47,825 nt of DNA, from NCBI GenBank assembly GCA_026713545.1, contig JAPOOG010000122.1, positions 1 to 47,825 of the forward strand, written 5' to 3'. Positions 24,072-35,172 of the stretch are shown here, one piece after another. The notes under the pieces are model-generated. The model was not told the DNA's origin. It worked only from the letters and a program-made list of their open reading frames with translations, and made no database searches. This DNA is from Bryobacterales bacterium. GTDB taxonomy: Bacteria; Acidobacteriota; Terriglobia; Bryobacterales; UBA6623. The position numbers and the translations under genes are program-made. Numbering within the stretch: the stretch's first letter is position 1; every line of letters begins with the position of its first letter.

Positions 24072-26909
24072 GTGTCCCAGGATTACCTTGAAATCCGAGG
24101 CGCCCGTGTCCATAGCCTCAAGAACATCGATCTGCGCCTGCCGCACAACAAGCTGATCGTCGTCACGGGTGTTTCCGGCTCCGGCAAGTCGTCGCTGGTC
24201 TTCGACACCATCTATGCGGAAGGCCAACGACGCTACGTAGAATCCCTCTCGGCCTACGCGCGGCAGTTCCTGGAGCGCATCGAAAAACCTGATGTCGACG
24301 AGATCCACGGCATCGCGCCGGCCGTGGCGATCCGGCAGAAGAACAGCACCCGTAACCCGCGCTCGACGGTAGCCACGGCCACGGAGATCTACGACTTTCT
24401 GCGTCTGCTGTTCGCACGCGCAGGGCGAACTTACTGTTCCAACTGTAGAAACGAAGTCCGCAAAGATACCGTCGATGAAGTCGCGAGCCGCATCTTGGAA
24501 CTGCCGGAAGGGTCGCGGTGGTATGTTCTTTTCCCTGTCCATGGGTGGGTCAAGGACGACCCAGAGGACCTCAAGGACCGTCTGGCGGACCTTCGGAGTA
24601 AAGGTTTCAACCGCCTCTATCAGGATGGCGGGTTCTTCGAGTTCTCAACGCCGGAGTCGCTTCTCGATATCGATTTCGAGAAGCCTTTCTATGCCCTCGT
24701 CGATCGCCTCTCCATCCGCGGCGACCTTCGCCAGCGGATCACAGACGCCGTCGAGACCTGCTATCGCGAATCGAAGGAAGTGATCTTCGAGCACGCCACG
24801 GATAATGTGCAGCAACTCTGGTTCAGCGAGCGTTTCGAGTGCCGCCCATGCGGCATCGAATACCTGGAGCCCGAGCCGCGCCTGTTCAGCTTCAACAGTC
24901 CCTATGGCGCATGTCCGCGGTGTCAGGGTTTCGGCAACACCATCGGCATCGACATGGAACGTGTCGTCCCCGATCGTTTCAAGTCGCTCGAGGAAGGCGC
25001 AGTTGCACCTTGGAGCAAGCCGCGCTATGCCAAGTGGCAGCGGGCGATGCTCGATGCGGCGCGAGGAGCAGGCGTCCGTACAACGGTTCCGTATCACGAG
25101 TTGACGGCGAAAGAAAGGGACTTCATCTTCCACGGGGGCAACGGCTTCAAGGGGCTCGATGGATTCTGGGCATATCTGGAGCGCAAGAAATACAAGATGC
25201 ATGTCCGCATTTTCATGAGCCGATACCGAGGTTATGCCCTGTGTCCCGACTGCAAGGGCGGCCGGTTACGCGCCGAGGCGTTGAACGTCCGAGTCGGGGG
25301 AAAGAACATTCGAGAGGTGGTGAACCTGACTCTCGAGATGTCCAAGGACTTCTTCAAAACACTCAAACTGGCGGGACAGCAGGCGCAAATCGCGGAGGAA
25401 TTGGTCCGCGACATCATTCACCGGCTTACCTTTCTCAACAGTGTCGGCCTGGAGTACCTCACGCTCGACCGACTGGCTTCGACTCTTTCCGGTGGCGAGT
25501 CGCAGCGGATTCAGTTAGCGACGTCACTCGGCTCACGGCTCGTCGGCGCATGCTATGTGCTCGATGAGCCGTCGATCGGACTGCACTGCCGTGACACCGG
25601 ACGGTTGATCGGCATCCTCAAAAGCCTTCGCGACATTGGAAACACGATCCTCGTTGTCGAGCACGACGCCGACGTGATGCGAGCCGCGGATCATATCGTC
25701 GATCTCGGCCCCGGCGCCGGCGAGCTCGGGGGTGAGGTCGTTTTTTCCGGAACGGCGTGCAAGCTGCTCTCGAATGGTGGACTCTCTCTCACAGGCCACT
25801 ACCTGCGCGGCGAAAGGACGATTCCCGTTCCCAAGACCCGTCGCAAGATTCGCCCCCGGAGGCAAATCAAGTTCCAGGCAGCTTACGTTCACAACTTGAA
25901 GAACATCGACGTCGCTATCCCTCGTAACCTGCTGACGGTTGTCACCGGCGTTTCCGGGTCCGGCAAATCCACCCTTGTCCGCAATGTTGTTTTTGATGGC
26001 CTGCGTGGCCTCACCAAGGGCGCCGGCAGAGCTGACTCCGACGGCGAGTTCCAGCGCCTGCCTTGCCGCAAGATCACCGGACACACTCAAATCGAGGACG
26101 TCGTCTTCGTGGACCAGTCGCCCATTGGCCGCTCGCCGCGTTCGAACCCCGTCACCTACGTCAAGGCTTTCGATGCAGTCCGGGCGCTCTTTGCCTCGAC
26201 TCCACAAGCCAAGCGCAAGGGCCTCACGCCGGGCCATTTCTCCTTCAATATCCCAGGCGGGCGTTGCGAAACCTGCCAAGGCGACGGGACAGTCACGGTG
26301 GAGATGCAGTTTCTGGCCGATGTCCCGCTTCTTTGCGAAGACTGCGACGGCAAGCGATACAAGCAGGAAATCCTCGACATCCGTTACCAGGACAAGAACA
26401 TCGACAACGTCCTTCGGATGACGATCGACGAAGCTCTCAAGTTCTTTATTCGTTCGCCTAAGATTACTCACAAGCTATCGCAGCTTTCCGAAGTCGGCCT
26501 CGGCTATCTTCGCCTCGGCCAGTCGGCGACCACACTTTCGGGAGGCGAGGCGCAACGAGTGAAGTTGGCCGGCCATGTGGCGCAATCGAAGTCCGACGGG
26601 ACGCTCTATCTCTTCGACGAGCCGACGACCGGTCTCCACTTCGACGATATCCGCAAGCTACTTGCCGCCTTCGACAAGCTGCTCGATCACGGTGCAACCC
26701 TGCTGGTCATCGAGCACAATCTCGACATTATCAAGTCGGCGGATTGGGTGATTGATCTCGGCCCGGAAGGCGGCGATCATGGCGGAGAGATCGTTGTCCA
26801 GGGAACACCCGAGCAGGTAGCCAAGACCAAAGACTCTCATACGGGCCAACACCTTGCCCGCGTTCTCAGAGTGGCTGAGACGGCGGGACGAGGGAAAAGT
26901 TCCCCTTGA
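24072..26909 (+). CDS. uvrA: Excinuclease ABC subunit A
   Basis: A 945-residue UvrA, the damage-recognition ATPase of nucleotide excision repair. It starts with GTG at 24072 (GGAGGG eight bases upstream) reading [20 protein letters not shown]. Both ABC modules are intact: Walker [13 protein letters not shown] and [13 protein letters not shown], signatures [13 protein letters not shown] and [13 protein letters not shown], and Walker B motifs LDEPSIGLH and FDEPTTGLH. Zinc-binding Cys pairs are seen at CSNC, CRPC/CPRC and CETC/CEDC. Length matches the family. It acts with UvrB; no uvrB or uvrC lies in the window. Confidence 0.97.
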
Positions 26910-27032: not shown

Positions 27033-27108
27033 GGGACGGTAGCTCAGTTGGTAGAGCAACGGCCTTTTAAGCCGTGGGTCCTGGGTTCGAGTCCCAGCCG
27101 TCTCACCA
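27033..27108 (+). tRNA. tRNA-Lys (anticodon TTT)
   Basis: A 76-nt cloverleaf including encoded CCA. Acceptor GGGACGG (27033-27039) pairs with CCGTCTC; D arm TAGCTCAGTTGGTAGAGC; anticodon stem ACGGC/GCCGT around CTTTTAA, giving anticodon TTT; T arm contains GGTTCGAGTCC. Followed directly by CCA (27106-27108). Confidence 0.95.
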
Positions 27109-27171: not shown

Positions 27172-29127
27172 TCAGCGCCATTCTTCGGCACGCTCGGCGA
27201 AGATCGTGCCGCCGCTATCGAACCATTCTGCGAATCCGATGGTTCTGTTCGCTGTCAGGCAAGTGATCGCCGTGTTCATGGCTTCTCGCAGCGCGTCGCC
27301 GGCGGGCGTGTCGGGATAGCTGAATGCACCGTGTTCGTTGCCCCCGGTGTCGATAGCTGTCAGCCGCAGTCCCGGCATGTCGCGAGCGGCAATTCGGTTG
27401 CTGATCTCCCCCCGCGCCACGACATCCACCGTGCCCTCCAGCAATGCGCTGAGTAGTTCGTCGTCACGCTCGAAATAGAGCACCTCGGGCTGGTCATCCC
27501 CTGGCGGCGTCAGGCGGATACGGGTGGCTATGGCGGCGGACCCTGTTCCTGCGGCGATGCGCAACGCCGACTCGCTGTTTGGCGGCCCGGCGGTCAGAAG
27601 CATGCCGCCGGCCAACAAAACCTTGGTTCCCGCTCGGAGGAGACCCGCAGAGTCGATGATGGCGGTCAACTCCAACAACCGCTTCTCACCGGTGGTGGCC
27701 CGATAAGTTCCCACGCGGTGTTCGGATGTCAGATCTTCGTGACGCTCGATGGCGCTTCCCTCATGCACCAGCAACGATTGGGAAAAGCTGATATGACCCA
27801 CGCCGAACCGGATCACCGGCCGGCCCTCTGAGTCCCTGGTGCGTTCGGGCAATGCGGTGATGCCGCCACCCACCATGTCATGTGGCTCTTGCGCCGCCTT
27901 GAGCCAGATTCCGGAGAAAGGATTGCCGATGGCCAACGTGTTGAAGCTCAGCCTGCCCCCCGACAAGGCCTCGACGGCTGCGACCAGGTCCGGCTCGTAG
28001 CCCATCGGTCGCTGCGACTCGGACTCCTGCGCTACGGAATAACTCACCGGATTGTAATCGGTGTAGAAACCGTACTGAACTTGCATGGCCGGGAAGTCAG
28101 CCAACGTTTGCCGGGCCGCTACGCAAGCCGTCGCGTCCGCGCTGCCGCATCCGCCCGGCGGGCAGTCGATGTAGATTCCGGCGCCGATCAGGACCGGTAC
28201 CCCCTGCCCCGTTAGCCGCTTGATGAAGGCGGCCTTGCGCTGCCATCTCCCCGTCTCGGGATGGATCGCATGATAGTAGGCTTGGCTTTCCCCGAACGCC
28301 TCCGCCACGGCTATCACATCCCGACCGTCAAAAAACGTCCGGGGATCTCGCCCCCACTCCGGAAAATGCTCGCCGTTCCACATCCCCGAAAACAACTGGT
28401 TTCCTATCAGATCCGTCCCGAACAAGTAGATCGATCCGGCCTGCCAGCGCGGATCGCTCTCCAGCAACGGTAAGGCGAAGTATCCCTTCGACTCGACTTC
28501 CATAGCTGCGCAGCGGACGAACTCTTCCAGCCTTTCCATGGACGGATCGACCGACAGCAGGGTGGCGTTGACTTGAGCGGCATGGCAGGCGCCGGGGATG
28601 TCGCGGCGGTAGATCCCCGCACCGAGCACGGCGTCCTCCCCTTGCCAATCGATTCGTACAAGGTAGGCAGCTTTCGGCTCGATCAGGCCGCTCTCCGGGT
28701 TCAGAAACTCGTAATAGCTCCAGCCGCGGTTTCGCTGTTGCAAGACACGGAAGAATTCTCCAATCACGTCCGTTCCGAAGCCGTCGATGAGGGGGCCCAA
28801 AGGTATCCTCTCACTGCTTGGATCCGTAGGCTGGACGATGCGCTCCGACAGCTCCGAGCGGGGAGCCAGCATTCTGACGAACACGTAGAATTGACCGCTA
28901 TTCCAGTGCTCATCCTCGTGAAAGGCACGGTACGCTTCTTCGAAGCCCATTTCCTGCACGTATTCATAAGCGCACTGCACAAAGGCCTCGACATCCTCTG
29001 TGGAGCGGATGCCGGCGGCCGTAACTGAATTTTCCGCGCAGGGAACCGCCGCCTCTCCGGAGACCTTGACAATCGTAACCGTAAGCAACAGCGCCGCAAT
29101 CTGCGCCATGACCCTGGATTTGTTCAC
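27172..29127 (-). CDS. Secreted double-Cache plus type-3 solute-binding fusion protein
   Basis: A 651-residue protein with signal peptide (about residues 7-25) and no later membrane helix. Residues about 45-180 and 200-325 look like two consecutive small-ligand Cache domains; each starts with VE(A/E)FV-C-A and carries the family-like pattern of an aromatic run with NP or HP-E-G (YYEFLNPESG; YYHAIHPETG), then K-A-A and GAGIY. A Cys-rich linker (CPPGGCGSADATAC) leads into residues about 335-651, a type-3 periplasmic solute-binding-like domain (YGFYTDYNPVSYSV; GYEPDLVAAVE; GGITALPERTRD; HRVGTYRATTGEK; LLEGTVDVVARGE). No transporter, kinase or chemoreceptor part is attached, so it may sense or bind ligands and pass them to a partner. 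Start GTG 29127; ATG 29109 is an alternative. Confidence 0.7.
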   Translation of the reverse strand: MNKSRVMAQIAALLLTVTIVKVSGEAAVPCAENSVTAAGIRSTEDVEAFVQCAYEYVQEMGFEEAYRAFHEDEHWNSGQFYVFVRMLAPRSELSERIVQPTDPSSERIPLGPLIDGFGTDVIGEFFRVLQQRNRGWSYYEFLNPESGLIEPKAAYLVRIDWQGEDAVLGAGIYRRDIPGACHAAQVNATLLSVDPSMERLEEFVRCAAMEVESKGYFALPLLESDPRWQAGSIYLFGTDLIGNQLFSGMWNGEHFPEWGRDPRTFFDGRDVIAVAEAFGESQAYYHAIHPETGRWQRKAAFIKRLTGQGVPVLIGAGIYIDCPPGGCGSADATACVAARQTLADFPAMQVQYGFYTDYNPVSYSVAQESESQRPMGYEPDLVAAVEALSGGRLSFNTLAIGNPFSGIWLKAAQEPHDMVGGGITALPERTRDSEGRPVIRFGVGHISFSQSLLVHEGSAIERHEDLTSEHRVGTYRATTGEKRLLELTAIIDSAGLLRAGTKVLLAGGMLLTAGPPNSESALRIAAGTGSAAIATRIRLTPPGDDQPEVLYFERDDELLSALLEGTVDVVARGEISNRIAARDMPGLRLTAIDTGGNEHGAFSYPDTPAGDALREAMNTAITCLTANRTIGFAEWFDSGGTIFAERAEEWR

Positions 29128-29638: not shown

Positions 29639-31354
29639 ATGAAGTTCGCCAATCAATTCAAGAGGATCGTGCTGTGCACAATCGCTTTCCTGTCGTTCAT
29701 CAGGGTCGCAGATGCCGCAGTCGACGTGCTCGGCGTAATGGCGGCGGAACTTGATCGCTCGATAGAGGTCCTTTCCGAAGAGAGCTCTCCGCTCTACTTC
29801 CTCAGCTACGAGATTACCCAGCAGGACCGAGCCTCGGTAGTTGCTTCGTTCGGGGCGGTCTCTCAGAATTCGCGAAGTGAGGACCGTGTCCTCGACATTG
29901 ATCTGCGGGTGGGCGACAAGGACCTAGACAACACGCATCCAACCGGCAGGGGATTCGACTTCCGGGTACGGTCGCGGACACAGGTACCGGTATCCGACCC
30001 CGAAGCGCTCCGAACCGTCCTCTGGCTTGCGACGGACAGAAAGTACCGGCAAGCAACCGAGCGGCTTTCCCGAGTCAGGGCAAGCGTCCGGATCAAGGTG
30101 GATGAAGAGGACCGGGCTGCCGACTTTTCCCCGCAGCAGGCCGTGGAATTCAGGGAGCCGCCACGGTCCATCACGATAGACACCTCCGGGTGGGCCGAAA
30201 AGCTCAAGCGGTACTCAGCGCCGTTCGCTGAGGCCGATCACATTTACACCGGTTCAGTGAGCTTCTCGACCGTTGCTGAGACGCGATGGTACGTCAATAG
30301 CGAGGGGACCAGGATCAGAACCTCGCGCACGTCGTACCGGTTGGGCGTTTTTGGTTCGACGAAGGCCGAAGACGGGATGAACCTGCCCCGCTATGAGCAG
30401 TTCTTTGCTTTCGACGAGGACGGCATGCCCGACGAAGAGACAGTTATGGAAACCGTCAGGCAGGTTATCGTCGATCTCCAGGCCCTGAGAGTCGCACCGG
30501 TTGCGGAGCCGTACAGCGGGCCCGCCATTCTTTCCGGGCGTGCCAGCGGTGTCTTCTTCCATGAAATCCTGGGTCACCGTGTCGAGGGTCACCGGCAGCG
30601 CGAGGCCGACGATGCCCAGACCTTCAAGGACATGACTGGCGAGTCGGTGCTGCCAGAGACTTTCTCGGTCGTGTTCGATCCGACCATCCGCCACGCCGGA
30701 GGGACCGATCTCGCCGGCTCCTTCAGGTTTGACAACGAGGGAGTCAAAGGCCAGCGGGTGGTGGTTATCGACCAGGGCCTATTGCAGGGGTTTCTCATGT
30801 CTCGCAAGCCGATCGAGGGGTTCTCCGGTTCCAACGGCCACGGGAGGAAACAACCCGGGTTCGCCGCTGTTGCCAGGCAGTCGAACCTGTTCGTCGAAGT
30901 GGAGAAGCCGCTGTCGGAAAGCGAACTCAAGGCAATGCTCCTCAAGCGGTTGCGGGACGAGGGCAAGGAGTACGGATTGCTCTTTGACGCCATCCAAGGG
31001 GGCTTCACGTTCACGGGCCGGCGCCTGCCGAATTCATTCAATGTCCTCCCGACCATGGTGTACCGCATCTACCTGGACGGCCGTGAGGAACTCGTGCGCG
31101 GAGTCGACCTGATCGGCACACCGCTCACAACATTCAGCAAGATCGCAGCAGGCGGAATGGAACGCACAACGTTCAACGGGGTTTGCGGTGCGGAATCCGG
31201 AGGCGTTCCGGTCAGTGCGATCTCGCCTCCGATACTGGTCTCCCAGATTGAAGTGCAACGAAAAGAGAAATCCCAGCAACGCCCGCCTATTCTGCCAGCA
31301 CCCTCGGGCCTGGCGCAGAGTGGGCGCCTGCTCGCTCCGGGAGGCCTCCAATGA
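29639..31354 (+). CDS. Exported TldD-like metalloprotease (active partner)
   Basis: A 571-residue TldD/PmbA-superfamily protein with an N-terminal signal peptide (MKFANQFKRIVLCTIAFLSF, cleavage about ADA-AV). Classical TldD is cytosolic, so this is an exported form. The metal site is complete: H308-E309-x-x-x-H313 (FFHEILGHRVEGH) and the C-terminal ligand C516 (NGVCGAESGGVPVS), as in the family. Conserved flanks such as the SRKPIEGFSGSNGHGRK block and RLPNSFNVLPTM are present. TldD with TldE acts on unstructured peptides, including RiPP precursors and antitoxins. Start ATG 29639 chosen for the signal peptide; a longer frame to 29312 is open, and the ribosome site is weak. Its TGA overlaps the ATG of the next gene in ATGA. 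Confidence 0.8.
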   Translation: MKFANQFKRIVLCTIAFLSFIRVADAAVDVLGVMAAELDRSIEVLSEESSPLYFLSYEITQQDRASVVASFGAVSQNSRSEDRVLDIDLRVGDKDLDNTHPTGRGFDFRVRSRTQVPVSDPEALRTVLWLATDRKYRQATERLSRVRASVRIKVDEEDRAADFSPQQAVEFREPPRSITIDTSGWAEKLKRYSAPFAEADHIYTGSVSFSTVAETRWYVNSEGTRIRTSRTSYRLGVFGSTKAEDGMNLPRYEQFFAFDEDGMPDEETVMETVRQVIVDLQALRVAPVAEPYSGPAILSGRASGVFFHEILGHRVEGHRQREADDAQTFKDMTGESVLPETFSVVFDPTIRHAGGTDLAGSFRFDNEGVKGQRVVVIDQGLLQGFLMSRKPIEGFSGSNGHGRKQPGFAAVARQSNLFVEVEKPLSESELKAMLLKRLRDEGKEYGLLFDAIQGGFTFTGRRLPNSFNVLPTMVYRIYLDGREELVRGVDLIGTPLTTFSKIAAGGMERTTFNGVCGAESGGVPVSAISPPILVSQIEVQRKEKSQQRPPILPAPSGLAQSGRLLAPGGLQ

Positions 31355-33108
31355 ACCGCACGCGGATCTACACCCTTTTCTTGTCGCTGTGCATCGCCTG
31401 GCTCCCGGCCGTCGCGCAGCCCAGCGTGGTGATGCAGGCGATGAAGGACGAATTGTCTCGCAGCATGAACGAACTGCGGCTGGGCGAACTGGAACAGCCG
31501 TACTTCGTCTCATACACCGTTCAAGAGGTCACGGTGATTAGCGCCACAGCATCCTTGGGCGGTCTCTCCGGAAGTGGAGAGAGTGCAAGACGAACCCTGC
31601 ATGTCGAGGTCAGGGTCGGGGACCGTGATCTCGACAACACCAACTTCTTCTCCCGACCGGACTTCACCTCGTTGGTGGATATTTCTTTCGGTCCTACTTT
31701 GCTGCCCCTGGAAGACGACTATGAAGAGCTCCGTCGCGCGATCTGGCTGGCGACGGACCGCGCATACAAGGACGCTCTCGAGCGGATCGCGAAGAAGCGC
31801 GCTGTGCTCCAGAACGAAACTGTCGTCGAGGAAACGCCGGACTTCAGCATCGAGGATCGGTACAAGCACGAAGGCGGCCCGGCTTTTCCCGTAGCGGAGG
31901 AGGACACTGTCGGCGCTTTGACAATCGGCTTGTCGGCTCTGTTCAAGGAGCACACGGATATCCACGTCTCTTCGGTCGATGCACGAGCGCGTCATGTGCG
32001 CGTCCAGTACGTGAACAGCGAGGGATCGTCATTCATCCGCGATGATCCCACTGCCATGGTGACCGTAAGGGCAGGGACACGAGCTGACGACGGAACGGAG
32101 ATTTCCGATTCGTTCACAGCATTTGGCCGAATTTGGGACGACCTCCCTGGCCTTGATGAGCTGGCCGAGCAAGGCCATGCGCTGGCCGGTCGACTCGAGG
32201 ACCTTCGGCAAGCACAGATATTCGAACGCTACGCAGGGCCCGTGCTGTTCGAGGGGCAGGCAGCGGCGGAACTGGTGCGCCAAGTTCTGGTTCCACGGCT
32301 GCTCGTCCAGAAGGCTCCCATCACGGACGACCAGCGGACGCGTCGGGTAGGGGACCGCTTGACCAATCCGTTCCAGGACAAGCTTGGCAGTCGAGTCCTG
32401 CCACGATTCCTGGCAATAGTGGACAACCCGGACCTCAGGCAAAACGAGCAGGGCACGCTTTGGGGAGGCTACGCGGTAGATGACGAAGGTGTACCCGCCC
32501 GCGAGACGGTGCTCGTCCAGCGCGGCATACTCAAGACACTGCTGTCGACGCGCAATCCGATAGAGGGGATTCCTCAGAGCAACGGCCATATGCGGGCTGG
32601 TGGACCGGCCCCGTCCAACCTCCTCCTGATGTCGAGCAGTGGGCTGACGGCAGCGGAGATGACCGAAGAATTCCTCGCCTTGCTGGAGGAGAGGGAGCTG
32701 GAGTACGGTATTGTCGTGAGACGGCTCCAGGAACCAGGTGCGGGCCGGTTCCAGGCAAGGCGGGGCGGCCGCTCAAGCGGAGGCCGGTTGATCAGGGCGG
32801 TGGTCGCGGTCAAGGTCTTTCCAGACGGCCGCGAGGAACTCATTCGCGAGGCTGTGCTGACTGGGCTGTCGGAGAGCAGCTTCCGAGATATCGTCGCGGC
32901 GTCCGAAGCTCTTACCAACCACACCATCCTGTTCCGGCATAGCAGTCCGTCGTTCGACCCATTCGGTTTCGTGATGCCTTCCCGCCGGTCGGGGATCATG
33001 GCATCCCTGGTCGTCCCGTCGCTCTTGTTCGAAGACGTGTCGGTACGCCGCCCGCCGGGTAATATTCCGCGTCCACCCGTCGTTGCGAGACCTGTGTCCG
33101 GGAAATAG
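31351..33108 (+). CDS. Exported TldE-like partner with degenerate metal site
   Basis: A 585-residue paralogue of the preceding protein, signal peptide MNRTRIYTLFLSLCIAWLPA (cleavage near AQP). The N-terminal half aligns with the first gene (VRVGDRDLDNT; WLATDRAYKDA; VNSEGSSFIR). At the HExxxH position it reads RQVLVP (310-315), and the C-terminal Cys is also missing, so no metal ligand survives, as in TldE/PmbA, the non-catalytic partner in TldD-TldE heterodimers. Translation is coupled to the first gene by a 4-bp overlap (ATGA), strong evidence for 1:1 assembly. Substrate peptide unknown. Nothing resembling a RiPP precursor is seen in the flanks. Confidence 0.75.
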   Translation: MNRTRIYTLFLSLCIAWLPAVAQPSVVMQAMKDELSRSMNELRLGELEQPYFVSYTVQEVTVISATASLGGLSGSGESARRTLHVEVRVGDRDLDNTNFFSRPDFTSLVDISFGPTLLPLEDDYEELRRAIWLATDRAYKDALERIAKKRAVLQNETVVEETPDFSIEDRYKHEGGPAFPVAEEDTVGALTIGLSALFKEHTDIHVSSVDARARHVRVQYVNSEGSSFIRDDPTAMVTVRAGTRADDGTEISDSFTAFGRIWDDLPGLDELAEQGHALAGRLEDLRQAQIFERYAGPVLFEGQAAAELVRQVLVPRLLVQKAPITDDQRTRRVGDRLTNPFQDKLGSRVLPRFLAIVDNPDLRQNEQGTLWGGYAVDDEGVPARETVLVQRGILKTLLSTRNPIEGIPQSNGHMRAGGPAPSNLLLMSSSGLTAAEMTEEFLALLEERELEYGIVVRRLQEPGAGRFQARRGGRSSGGRLIRAVVAVKVFPDGREELIREAVLTGLSESSFRDIVAASEALTNHTILFRHSSPSFDPFGFVMPSRRSGIMASLVVPSLLFEDVSVRRPPGNIPRPPVVARPVSGK

Positions 33109-33496: not shown

Positions 33497-34666
33497 TTAT
33501 TCAAATTCGGCGAGCCCGATTCCTTCCTTCGTCTCGTCAGCCGCGAGCTTTACGACCGAACGCAACGCCTCGGCTTCGGTATCCCCTTCCAGCCGGCGCA
33601 GCCTGAAATGGTCGACCTGCCGGTCCGCTCCAGTGCCTTCTCGAACGATTTCTTTGGCATGGCGCAGCTCGGCGTGGCATCCGAGGGCTTGGGCGTCGTC
33701 TGCGAGTTCTTCGATCAGCAGGGCCGTGTAATCATCGATGTCCATTCGCCCGCCTTGCTCGGGATCGCCGAGGAAGGCCATCACGCCGTACCTCTGTGCC
33801 AGCCAGCGGTTCTCGGCGATGATCTCGATGGGCGGGTCCTGTGGCAGAGCACCCTCCTCGTCCCGGCGAAGCAGGTACCGGACAAGCGATGCGAAGAGGG
33901 CAACGATGCACATTGCGTCTTCGACGCGCGTGCAAATGTCGCAGATACGCAATTCCACCGTTGGAAAGGAGCGTGACGGCCGGATGTCCCACCACAACTC
34001 ACTGCCGTCCCTAATGAAGCGCATTCGAAGGTAGTCGTTCACCAAGTCATCGAATTCGTCCCACGAGGCCAACGCATTCGGCAGACCCGTTCGCGGCAAG
34101 TTGCCTACCAGGTTCAGCCTGTACGATTTGAAACCTGTCAAGCGACCCTCGTTGAACGGAGAAGAGCCGGAGAGGGCATGGAGCAGCGGCAGGGAACGCC
34201 GGAGGGCCGTCATGATGCGCACTCGGGAATCCCTGTTGCCGAACCCGGCATGAATGTGCATTCCGCCAACGAGGAACCGACGCAAGGATTCCTGAAACGC
34301 GATCACGAAATCGCGGTATCGTTGGCCGGGAGTGACCACCTGCGTCTCCCAAGAAGCGAACGGATGCGTGGAGGTTGCCAGCACTGACGCGCCGTGCTCT
34401 TCGGCTGTCTGGACCAAGATCCGGCGTGATTCGCAAATGGCCGATCTTAATTCCTCGACCGACGTGCAGACGCAAGTGTTCGTTTCGATCTGTGAGCGCA
34501 GGAACTCGCGAACGAACTTGTGCCGTCCGGTCCTTTCCTGGCAGACCTCGTAGATGCCCTCATCGGGTTCGCGGAGCAAATCGCCGGTTTCCGGATCGAT
34601 AAGGAAGAACTCCTCCTCGACTCCAAGGGTAATCGCAAGTCTGTCGCTATTTCGCCGGTGGGTCAC
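33497..34666 (-). CDS. YbdK-type carboxylate-amine ligase (GCS2 family)
   Basis: A 389-residue member of the glutamate-cysteine ligase 2 family (carboxylate-amine ligase). Clear motifs: LGVEEEFFLIDPETG at the N-terminus (nucleotide/metal acidic cluster), GGMHIHAGFGN, GFKSYRLN and ELRICDICTRVEDAM. YbdK of E. coli has weak gamma-glutamylcysteine ligase activity; the natural substrate in most lineages is unknown, so a glutathione role is not assured. GTG 34666 is chosen because GAGGGAG sits a few bases ahead; ATG 34684 six codons upstream is the alternative. No other thiol-pathway gene is adjacent. Confidence 0.85.
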   Translation of the reverse strand: MTHRRNSDRLAITLGVEEEFFLIDPETGDLLREPDEGIYEVCQERTGRHKFVREFLRSQIETNTCVCTSVEELRSAICESRRILVQTAEEHGASVLATSTHPFASWETQVVTPGQRYRDFVIAFQESLRRFLVGGMHIHAGFGNRDSRVRIMTALRRSLPLLHALSGSSPFNEGRLTGFKSYRLNLVGNLPRTGLPNALASWDEFDDLVNDYLRMRFIRDGSELWWDIRPSRSFPTVELRICDICTRVEDAMCIVALFASLVRYLLRRDEEGALPQDPPIEIIAENRWLAQRYGVMAFLGDPEQGGRMDIDDYTALLIEELADDAQALGCHAELRHAKEIVREGTGADRQVDHFRLRRLEGDTEAEALRSVVKLAADETKEGIGLAEFE

Positions 34667-35082
34667 TTTCTCTCCCTCAAGCATCTCCCGGTGAGAACCG
34701 CAGGCCGGAGCCAGAAGCCGTTCAAGCGATAGCTGAATCTGCTGGCTGGCCGGCCGGAGGAGTCATCGCCCGGGCGAGACGGGAGGCGATCCTCTTGCAA
34801 TCGCATTCCCCTCTCCTTGCACCATCCATTGTTGGCACATTTTCGCAGAGGAACTTGGCCGGTTTCCGAATTAGTAGACGCTCCCAGTATGGATCGATCA
34901 CAGTGCAACAGTTCCGACAGCCCGAAAACGATGATCGTTTTGCGTATGACCGTGCGACTAGCTGGCCGGAATCGCGACCTCTCCGAAGTTGCCCACAAAG
35001 AACGGAACTGCAACTGCCAGAGTAACTTGCAGACTGAGAGAGGGAGATCAGGAGCTGGAAGTTTGGTTGTAGAACGAAGTGA
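34667..35082. other. 416-bp gap with no gene
   Basis: Lies between the carboxylate-amine ligase start and tRNA-Ser. Open frames on both strands are short, overlap the tRNA and carry no recognisable family, ribosome site or repeat. Confidence 0.4.
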
Positions 35083-35172
35083 TGGCGGTGAGGGTGGGAT
35101 TCGAACCCACGGAGGCCGCAAGACCTCAACGGTTTTCGAGACCGCCCGATTCAACCACTCTCGCACCTCACC
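35083..35172 (-). tRNA. tRNA-Ser (anticodon CGA)
   Basis: A 90-nt cloverleaf on the minus strand with long variable arm and encoded CCA (plus-strand TGG at 35083-35085). Acceptor GGTGAGG pairs with CCTCACC; anticodon stem GCGGT/ACCGT encloses CTCGAAA, anticodon CGA (codon UCG). The long variable arm (GGTCTTGCGGCC) and GGTTCGAATCC T arm are typical of serine tRNA. Confidence 0.95.

Follow-up and report, generated by a model that had tools for sequence, protein, structure and literature searches.

TldD/TldE proteases occur in about 60% of bacteria (PMC5810440). In the E. coli TldD/TldE pair (MEROPS M103, PDB 5NJ5-5NJF), which is cytosolic and belongs to the MccB17/CcdA context, one subunit carries an HExxxH motif and a distal Cys and the other is an inactive paralogue. 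The roles of TldD residues H262, E263, H267, E270, C454 and R362 have been described, and a pencil-sharpener mechanism has been proposed for the pair (PMC5810440). TldE/PmbA homodimers (1VL4, 3QTD, 3TV9, 1VPB) have the same fold without a catalytic site. Searches of the open-licence literature turned up no account of an exported TldD/E pair. As a lead, the 'Peptidase U62' MXAN_2519 was detected by mass spectrometry in outer membrane vesicles of Myxococcus xanthus (PMC4158809); its likeness to the proteins described below lies in the family name and the extracytoplasmic detection.

The window analysed here is a whole stretch of 47,825 nucleotides from a 5.6 Mb genome that most likely belongs to the order Bryobacterales (Acidobacteriota). 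It encodes two adjacent paralogues, designated A and B, that share with E. coli TldD/TldE the combination of an HExxxH plus distal Cys subunit and an inactive partner, as well as their paired presence and predicted whole-chain fold. They differ in being larger, poor in Cys and predicted to be exported by the Sec system. The features of the locus, with the evidence for each, are as follows.

29639-31354, + strand: gene A, predicted exported TldD-like metallopeptidase subunit, 571 aa (PF19289, PF19290 and 5nj5_A matches; site conservation)
29639-29716, + strand: predicted signal peptide of A (MKFANQFKRIVLCTIAFLSFIRVADA), cleavage point approximate (hydrophobic segment and charge; kept in relatives)
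30560-30577, + strand: HEILGH metal-binding motif of A (H308, E309, H313), equivalent to H262/E263/H267 of E. coli TldD (conservation in A relatives)
31184-31186, + strand: codon for Cys516 of A, predicted third metal ligand, equivalent to Cys454 of E. coli TldD (Cys in 111 of 112 A relatives)
31351-31354, + strand: ATGA shared by the stop of A (TGA) and the start of B (ATG) (sequence)
31351-33108, + strand: gene B, predicted exported, catalytically dead partner, 585 aa (PF19289 match; AlphaFold fold match)
31351-31416, + strand: predicted signal peptide of B (MNRTRIYTLFLSLCIAWLPAVA), cleavage point approximate (hydrophobic segment and charge; kept in relatives)
32278-32295, + strand: RQVLVP of B (residues 310-315), degenerate counterpart of HEILGH in A (alignment with A relatives)
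27172-29127, - strand: Cache/solute-binding-like protein, flanking the pair and unrelated to it (family search)
33497-34684, - strand: YbdK-type carboxylate-amine ligase, flanking the pair and unrelated to it (family search)

The coupling of the two genes by an ATGA overlap, proposed in an earlier note made from the sequence alone, was confirmed. Genes for tRNA-Lys (27033-27108) and tRNA-Ser (35083-35172) bracket the pair, and the window also encodes a 945-aa UvrA (24072-26909) that scores over the NCBIfam cut-off.

The C-terminal metallopeptidase domain PF19289 was detected in both A (E 9.5e-23, 81 bits) and B (E 2.2e-15, 56.9 bits; cut-off 22). A also gave a weak match to the central domain PF19290 (E 6.5e-5) and a sequence match to E. 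coli TldD (5nj5_A, E 6.1e-16). The first domain of the Pfam description, PF01523, had no match in either protein in the Pfam search, and the NCBIfam cut-offs for classical TldD equivalogs were not reached (67.6 bits vs 635; 54.1 vs 513). A has the metal site of a classical TldD, HExxxH plus a distal Cys, but the residues of the clamp tether (Lys456/Asp272) are replaced and the N-terminus resembles an export signal.

Conservation of the site was counted in a 250-row alignment containing 112 relatives of A and 106 of B, and equivalences to E. coli TldD were placed by counting along the alignment of A with the 5nj5_A sequence. H308, E309 and R413 are present in all 112 A relatives, and H313, E316 and C516 in 111 each; in the order H308, E309, H313, E316, C516 and R413 these residues correspond to E. 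coli H262, E263, H267, E270, C454 and R362. The four residues singled out in the earlier note (H308, E309, H313 and Cys516) are therefore indeed kept in A and nearly invariant in its relatives. Its statement that B has RQVLVP and no Cys also holds for mature B. The stretch of B aligned to this region reads VRQVLVPRL, and the first His and the ligand Cys were found in none of the 106 B relatives (0/106 each), with mostly Gln at the position of the catalytic Glu; the equivalent of Arg362, R413 in A, is lost as well. The clamp-tether residues Lys456 and Asp272 of E. coli TldD are replaced in A by A518 (109/112 relatives) and H318 (95/112), so the site of A is not identical to that of E. coli TldD.

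N-termini were assessed with a simple hydrophobicity rule of thumb (not SignalP), using starts picked by position rather than by hydrophobicity. By this rule 112 of 116 A or fusion rows and 111 of 113 B rows, some of them near-duplicates, have signal-like N-termini, as the earlier note had proposed for the window's pair, whereas the rule is passed by 6.5% of internal windows and by no canonical TldD/TldE N-terminus (0/32). The passing rows have a hydrophobic core, usually preceded by a positive n-region, and small residues are frequent before the mature start across phyla. In the window, the hydrophobic segment of A scores 2.81 (12-residue mean) with a net charge of +3 ahead of it; the values for B are 2.14 and +2. 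Cys content gave a second, independent sign of export, since depletion of Cys fits an oxidising compartment. C516 is the only Cys of mature A, mature B has zero (its lone Cys, C14, lies within the signal peptide), and in 77 of the 112 A relatives the metal ligand is the single Cys of the mature protein. The mean number of Cys per chain is 1.5 for A and 1.0 for B vs 4.5 for canonical TldD. We infer that A and B are both exported via Sec. A different possible case of export was observed in genome G122 (locus L132, 2126-3691), which encodes a TldD with HExxxH and the TldD fold, like A; it differs from A in its twin-arginine-like N-terminus (MTRRSFVKSASAGTAGGAWVLPGAW), a possible Tat signal, and groups with canonical TldD. 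Its TldE neighbour has no signal.

AlphaFold modelling of B from 40 alignment rows gave a pLDDT of 87.4 and a pTM of 0.87, and the model matched TldD (5njc_C) with Z 29.9 over 428 residues and TldE (5nj9_B) with Z 24.6. A natural A-B fusion of 1134 residues (locus L056) was modelled from an alignment of fusions, same-frame read-through A-B pairs and B rows, giving a pLDDT of 86.4 and a pTM of 0.84; its A half matched TldD with Z 34.1 over 442 residues. For that half the alignment was shallow, with 11 paired rows, 7 of them read-through products of same-frame neighbours; in these rows, which served the alignment only, the stop codon of A was translated as an amino acid. Significant PDB matches of the B model and the fusion's A half were confined to the TldD/TldE/PmbA family; MHC-like fold matches of both models were weak and were disregarded. 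The models thus predict the whole two-domain TldD/TldE fold for B and for the A half of the fusion. The pTM of 0.84 for two equal halves suggests a confident prediction of how they are placed relative to each other; although such a score speaks only indirectly for an interface, it makes a defined A:B arrangement likely.

Maximum-likelihood trees recover A, B, TldD and TldE as four separate groups and unite A with B in a clade with a support of 100. In a profile comparison B scored somewhat better to TldE than to TldD, but shared loss of catalytic parts would also bring its profile nearer to TldE. We rejected the possibility that B is a TldE: it groups with A, its similarity to A is much stronger than that to TldE, and a tree constrained to join B with TldE was rejected (p-AU 6.1e-5). 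B thus resembles the TldE/PmbA homodimers in having the fold without a catalytic site but differs from them in lying nearer to A by tree and sequence and, in its model, nearer to TldD than to TldE. From these relationships the inactivation of B would be independent of that of TldE, and the active/inactive arrangement seems to have arisen twice, with long branches limiting certainty. The host genome also encodes a canonical cytosolic TldD/TldE pair on another contig (C58, 9360-13061; locus L004), which accounts for its sole PF01523 matches. Since that pair persists, A-B is an additional system and not a relocated one. The earlier note had likened the locus to a TldD-TldE heterodimer moved to the periplasm; of this, an exported active/inactive pair, most likely a heterodimer, stands on the signals, ligand pattern, co-occurrence, fusions and fold, but the move of the classical pair does not.

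Several observations bear on whether A and B work together. Both genes are present in all 44 Acidobacteriota genomes that carry a full A, in 22 of 23 genomes with A from the phylum to which the Ignavibacteriae locus L082 belongs, and in 6 of 6 from that of locus L053. In several genomes of the L082 phylum A and B lie on separate contigs, with B mid-contig in most of those checked. Of the 60 relatives searched, most keep the two genes adjacent (locus L037 is 96% identical to the window over A), which argues that the pairing is not due to chance. Where junctions could be compared, 84 of 95 were at most 50 bases apart and 35 of 95 had a 4-base overlap. In five loci (L056, L069, L073, L088 and L136) A and B are fused in a single open frame; the signal peptide of B is gone at the junction, leaving one N-terminal signal per chain, which for L069 falls outside the sequence as this frame begins at the contig edge. 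The fused A halves sit at two separate places in the tree, so fusion arose at least twice independently. Together, the fusions, the near-strict co-occurrence and the junctions support, strongly though indirectly, a 1:1 complex whose subunits share a compartment, and A and B most likely work as a heterodimer. In L082 (11667-12200), and at the same position in L100, L105 and L112, a conserved small ORF (about 177 aa) that resembles a membrane protein and has no Pfam match lies between A and B.

Relatives are encoded in at least 578 candidate stretches (one genome per species). By their titles, the best 80 of these at least 578 include Acidobacteriota, marine and sponge-type gammaproteobacterial MAGs (the sponge association is deduced from isolate names), Ignavibacteria, Kapabacteria and Aminicenantes, with one Gemmatimonadota and one Desulfobulbaceae record. 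Few gammaproteobacteria overall have the pair (1/274 genomes); three gammaproteobacterial MAG loci (L074, L076, L083) have tandem arrays of up to three A-B pairs. Five of eight tested genomes with an A-B pair, mostly drafts, lack a PF01523 match, and the exported pair can thus exist without a canonical one. The absence of an adjacent precursor or substrate gene, reported in the earlier note for the window, holds across relatives: clustering of the neighbours revealed no partner gene or substrate conserved across phyla. Genes of the panD/glmU/gpmA type (names read from sequences) lie upstream of the pair in Ignavibacteria and were rejected as partners, as they look like housekeeping context. 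MacB-like transporters near some of the arrays were rejected as well, with other genes lying in between.

We consider it probable that A and B form a Sec-exported, stand-alone metallopeptidase heterodimer of the TldD/TldE fold that trims unfolded peptides in the envelope independently of ATP. Once in the periplasm or cell envelope, the two proteins would fold and pair 1:1 as a hollow heterodimer, in which A would bind Zn or Fe via H308, H313 and C516 and use E309 as the general base, and B would supply and stabilise the other half of the shell. Unfolded peptides would thread into the chamber and be trimmed with no need for ATP, following the mechanism suggested for E. coli TldD/E. Given the lack of a dedicated neighbour gene, the pair most likely serves the general turnover of envelope peptides or of chains that are misfolded or imported. 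More broadly, we lean towards the view that A-B represents a second, widespread TldD/E-type lineage located in the envelope, with an active/inactive heterodimer that evolved independently of cytosolic TldD/TldE and would form an extracytoplasmic chamber for trimming peptides without ATP. Such a lineage suggests an unrecognised ATP-independent turnover of envelope peptides in several phyla. Being exported, with an inactive partner of its own, natural fusions and, in five of eight genomes tested, no canonical pair, it also allows the need for a dead subunit to be tested cleanly.

Other readings of the locus concern its substrate or its architecture. The pair might be devoted to maturing one particular exported peptide (RiPP-like) or other substrate encoded elsewhere in the genome, much as cytosolic TldD/E is often encoded apart from the RiPP clusters it serves (PMC10885120), and the tandem arrays of sponge-associated gammaproteobacteria, with as many as three pairs, could mean specialised substrates. 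We regard this as unlikely, given that no neighbour is conserved in Acidobacteriota or gammaproteobacteria, that the Ignavibacteria upstream genes are only of the housekeeping type, and that presence in many unrelated phyla suggests a general role. Hydrolysis of a non-peptide or wall-derived amide in the envelope, by an N-deacetylase-like activity or on peptidoglycan stem peptides, would be permitted by the near-site changes H318 and A518, and a 2022 review, cited in PMC10885120, names TldD/TldE-type N-deacetylases in its title. The retention in A of the peptide-cleft residues of TldD (the Arg362 equivalent, HExxxH and Cys) makes such a substrate very unlikely.

With respect to architecture, A could be a homodimer, and B, instead of forming half of the enzyme's structure, could act separately as a regulator, chaperone or decoy. 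A Sulfolobus TldD homodimer is reported to be active, according to the discussion in PMC5810440, and B is conserved even when unlinked from A, as a regulator would be; however, the fusions join A and B 1:1 in one chain, the fused model has a high pTM and the two proteins co-occur almost strictly, and we judge this arrangement decidedly unlikely. That the N-terminal segments are uncleaved anchors, or that the proteins remain cytoplasmic, is highly improbable: across phyla the hydrophobic core is short, the n-region is positive and small residues are frequent ahead of the mature start, and both proteins are depleted in Cys; anchors facing the envelope would still count as exported. A possible cytosolic outgroup was noted in locus L135 (3268-4917), where a 550-aa A-like protein with HEAVGH has neither a signal peptide nor a B neighbour and its gene adjoins one for a thioredoxin-like membrane protein.
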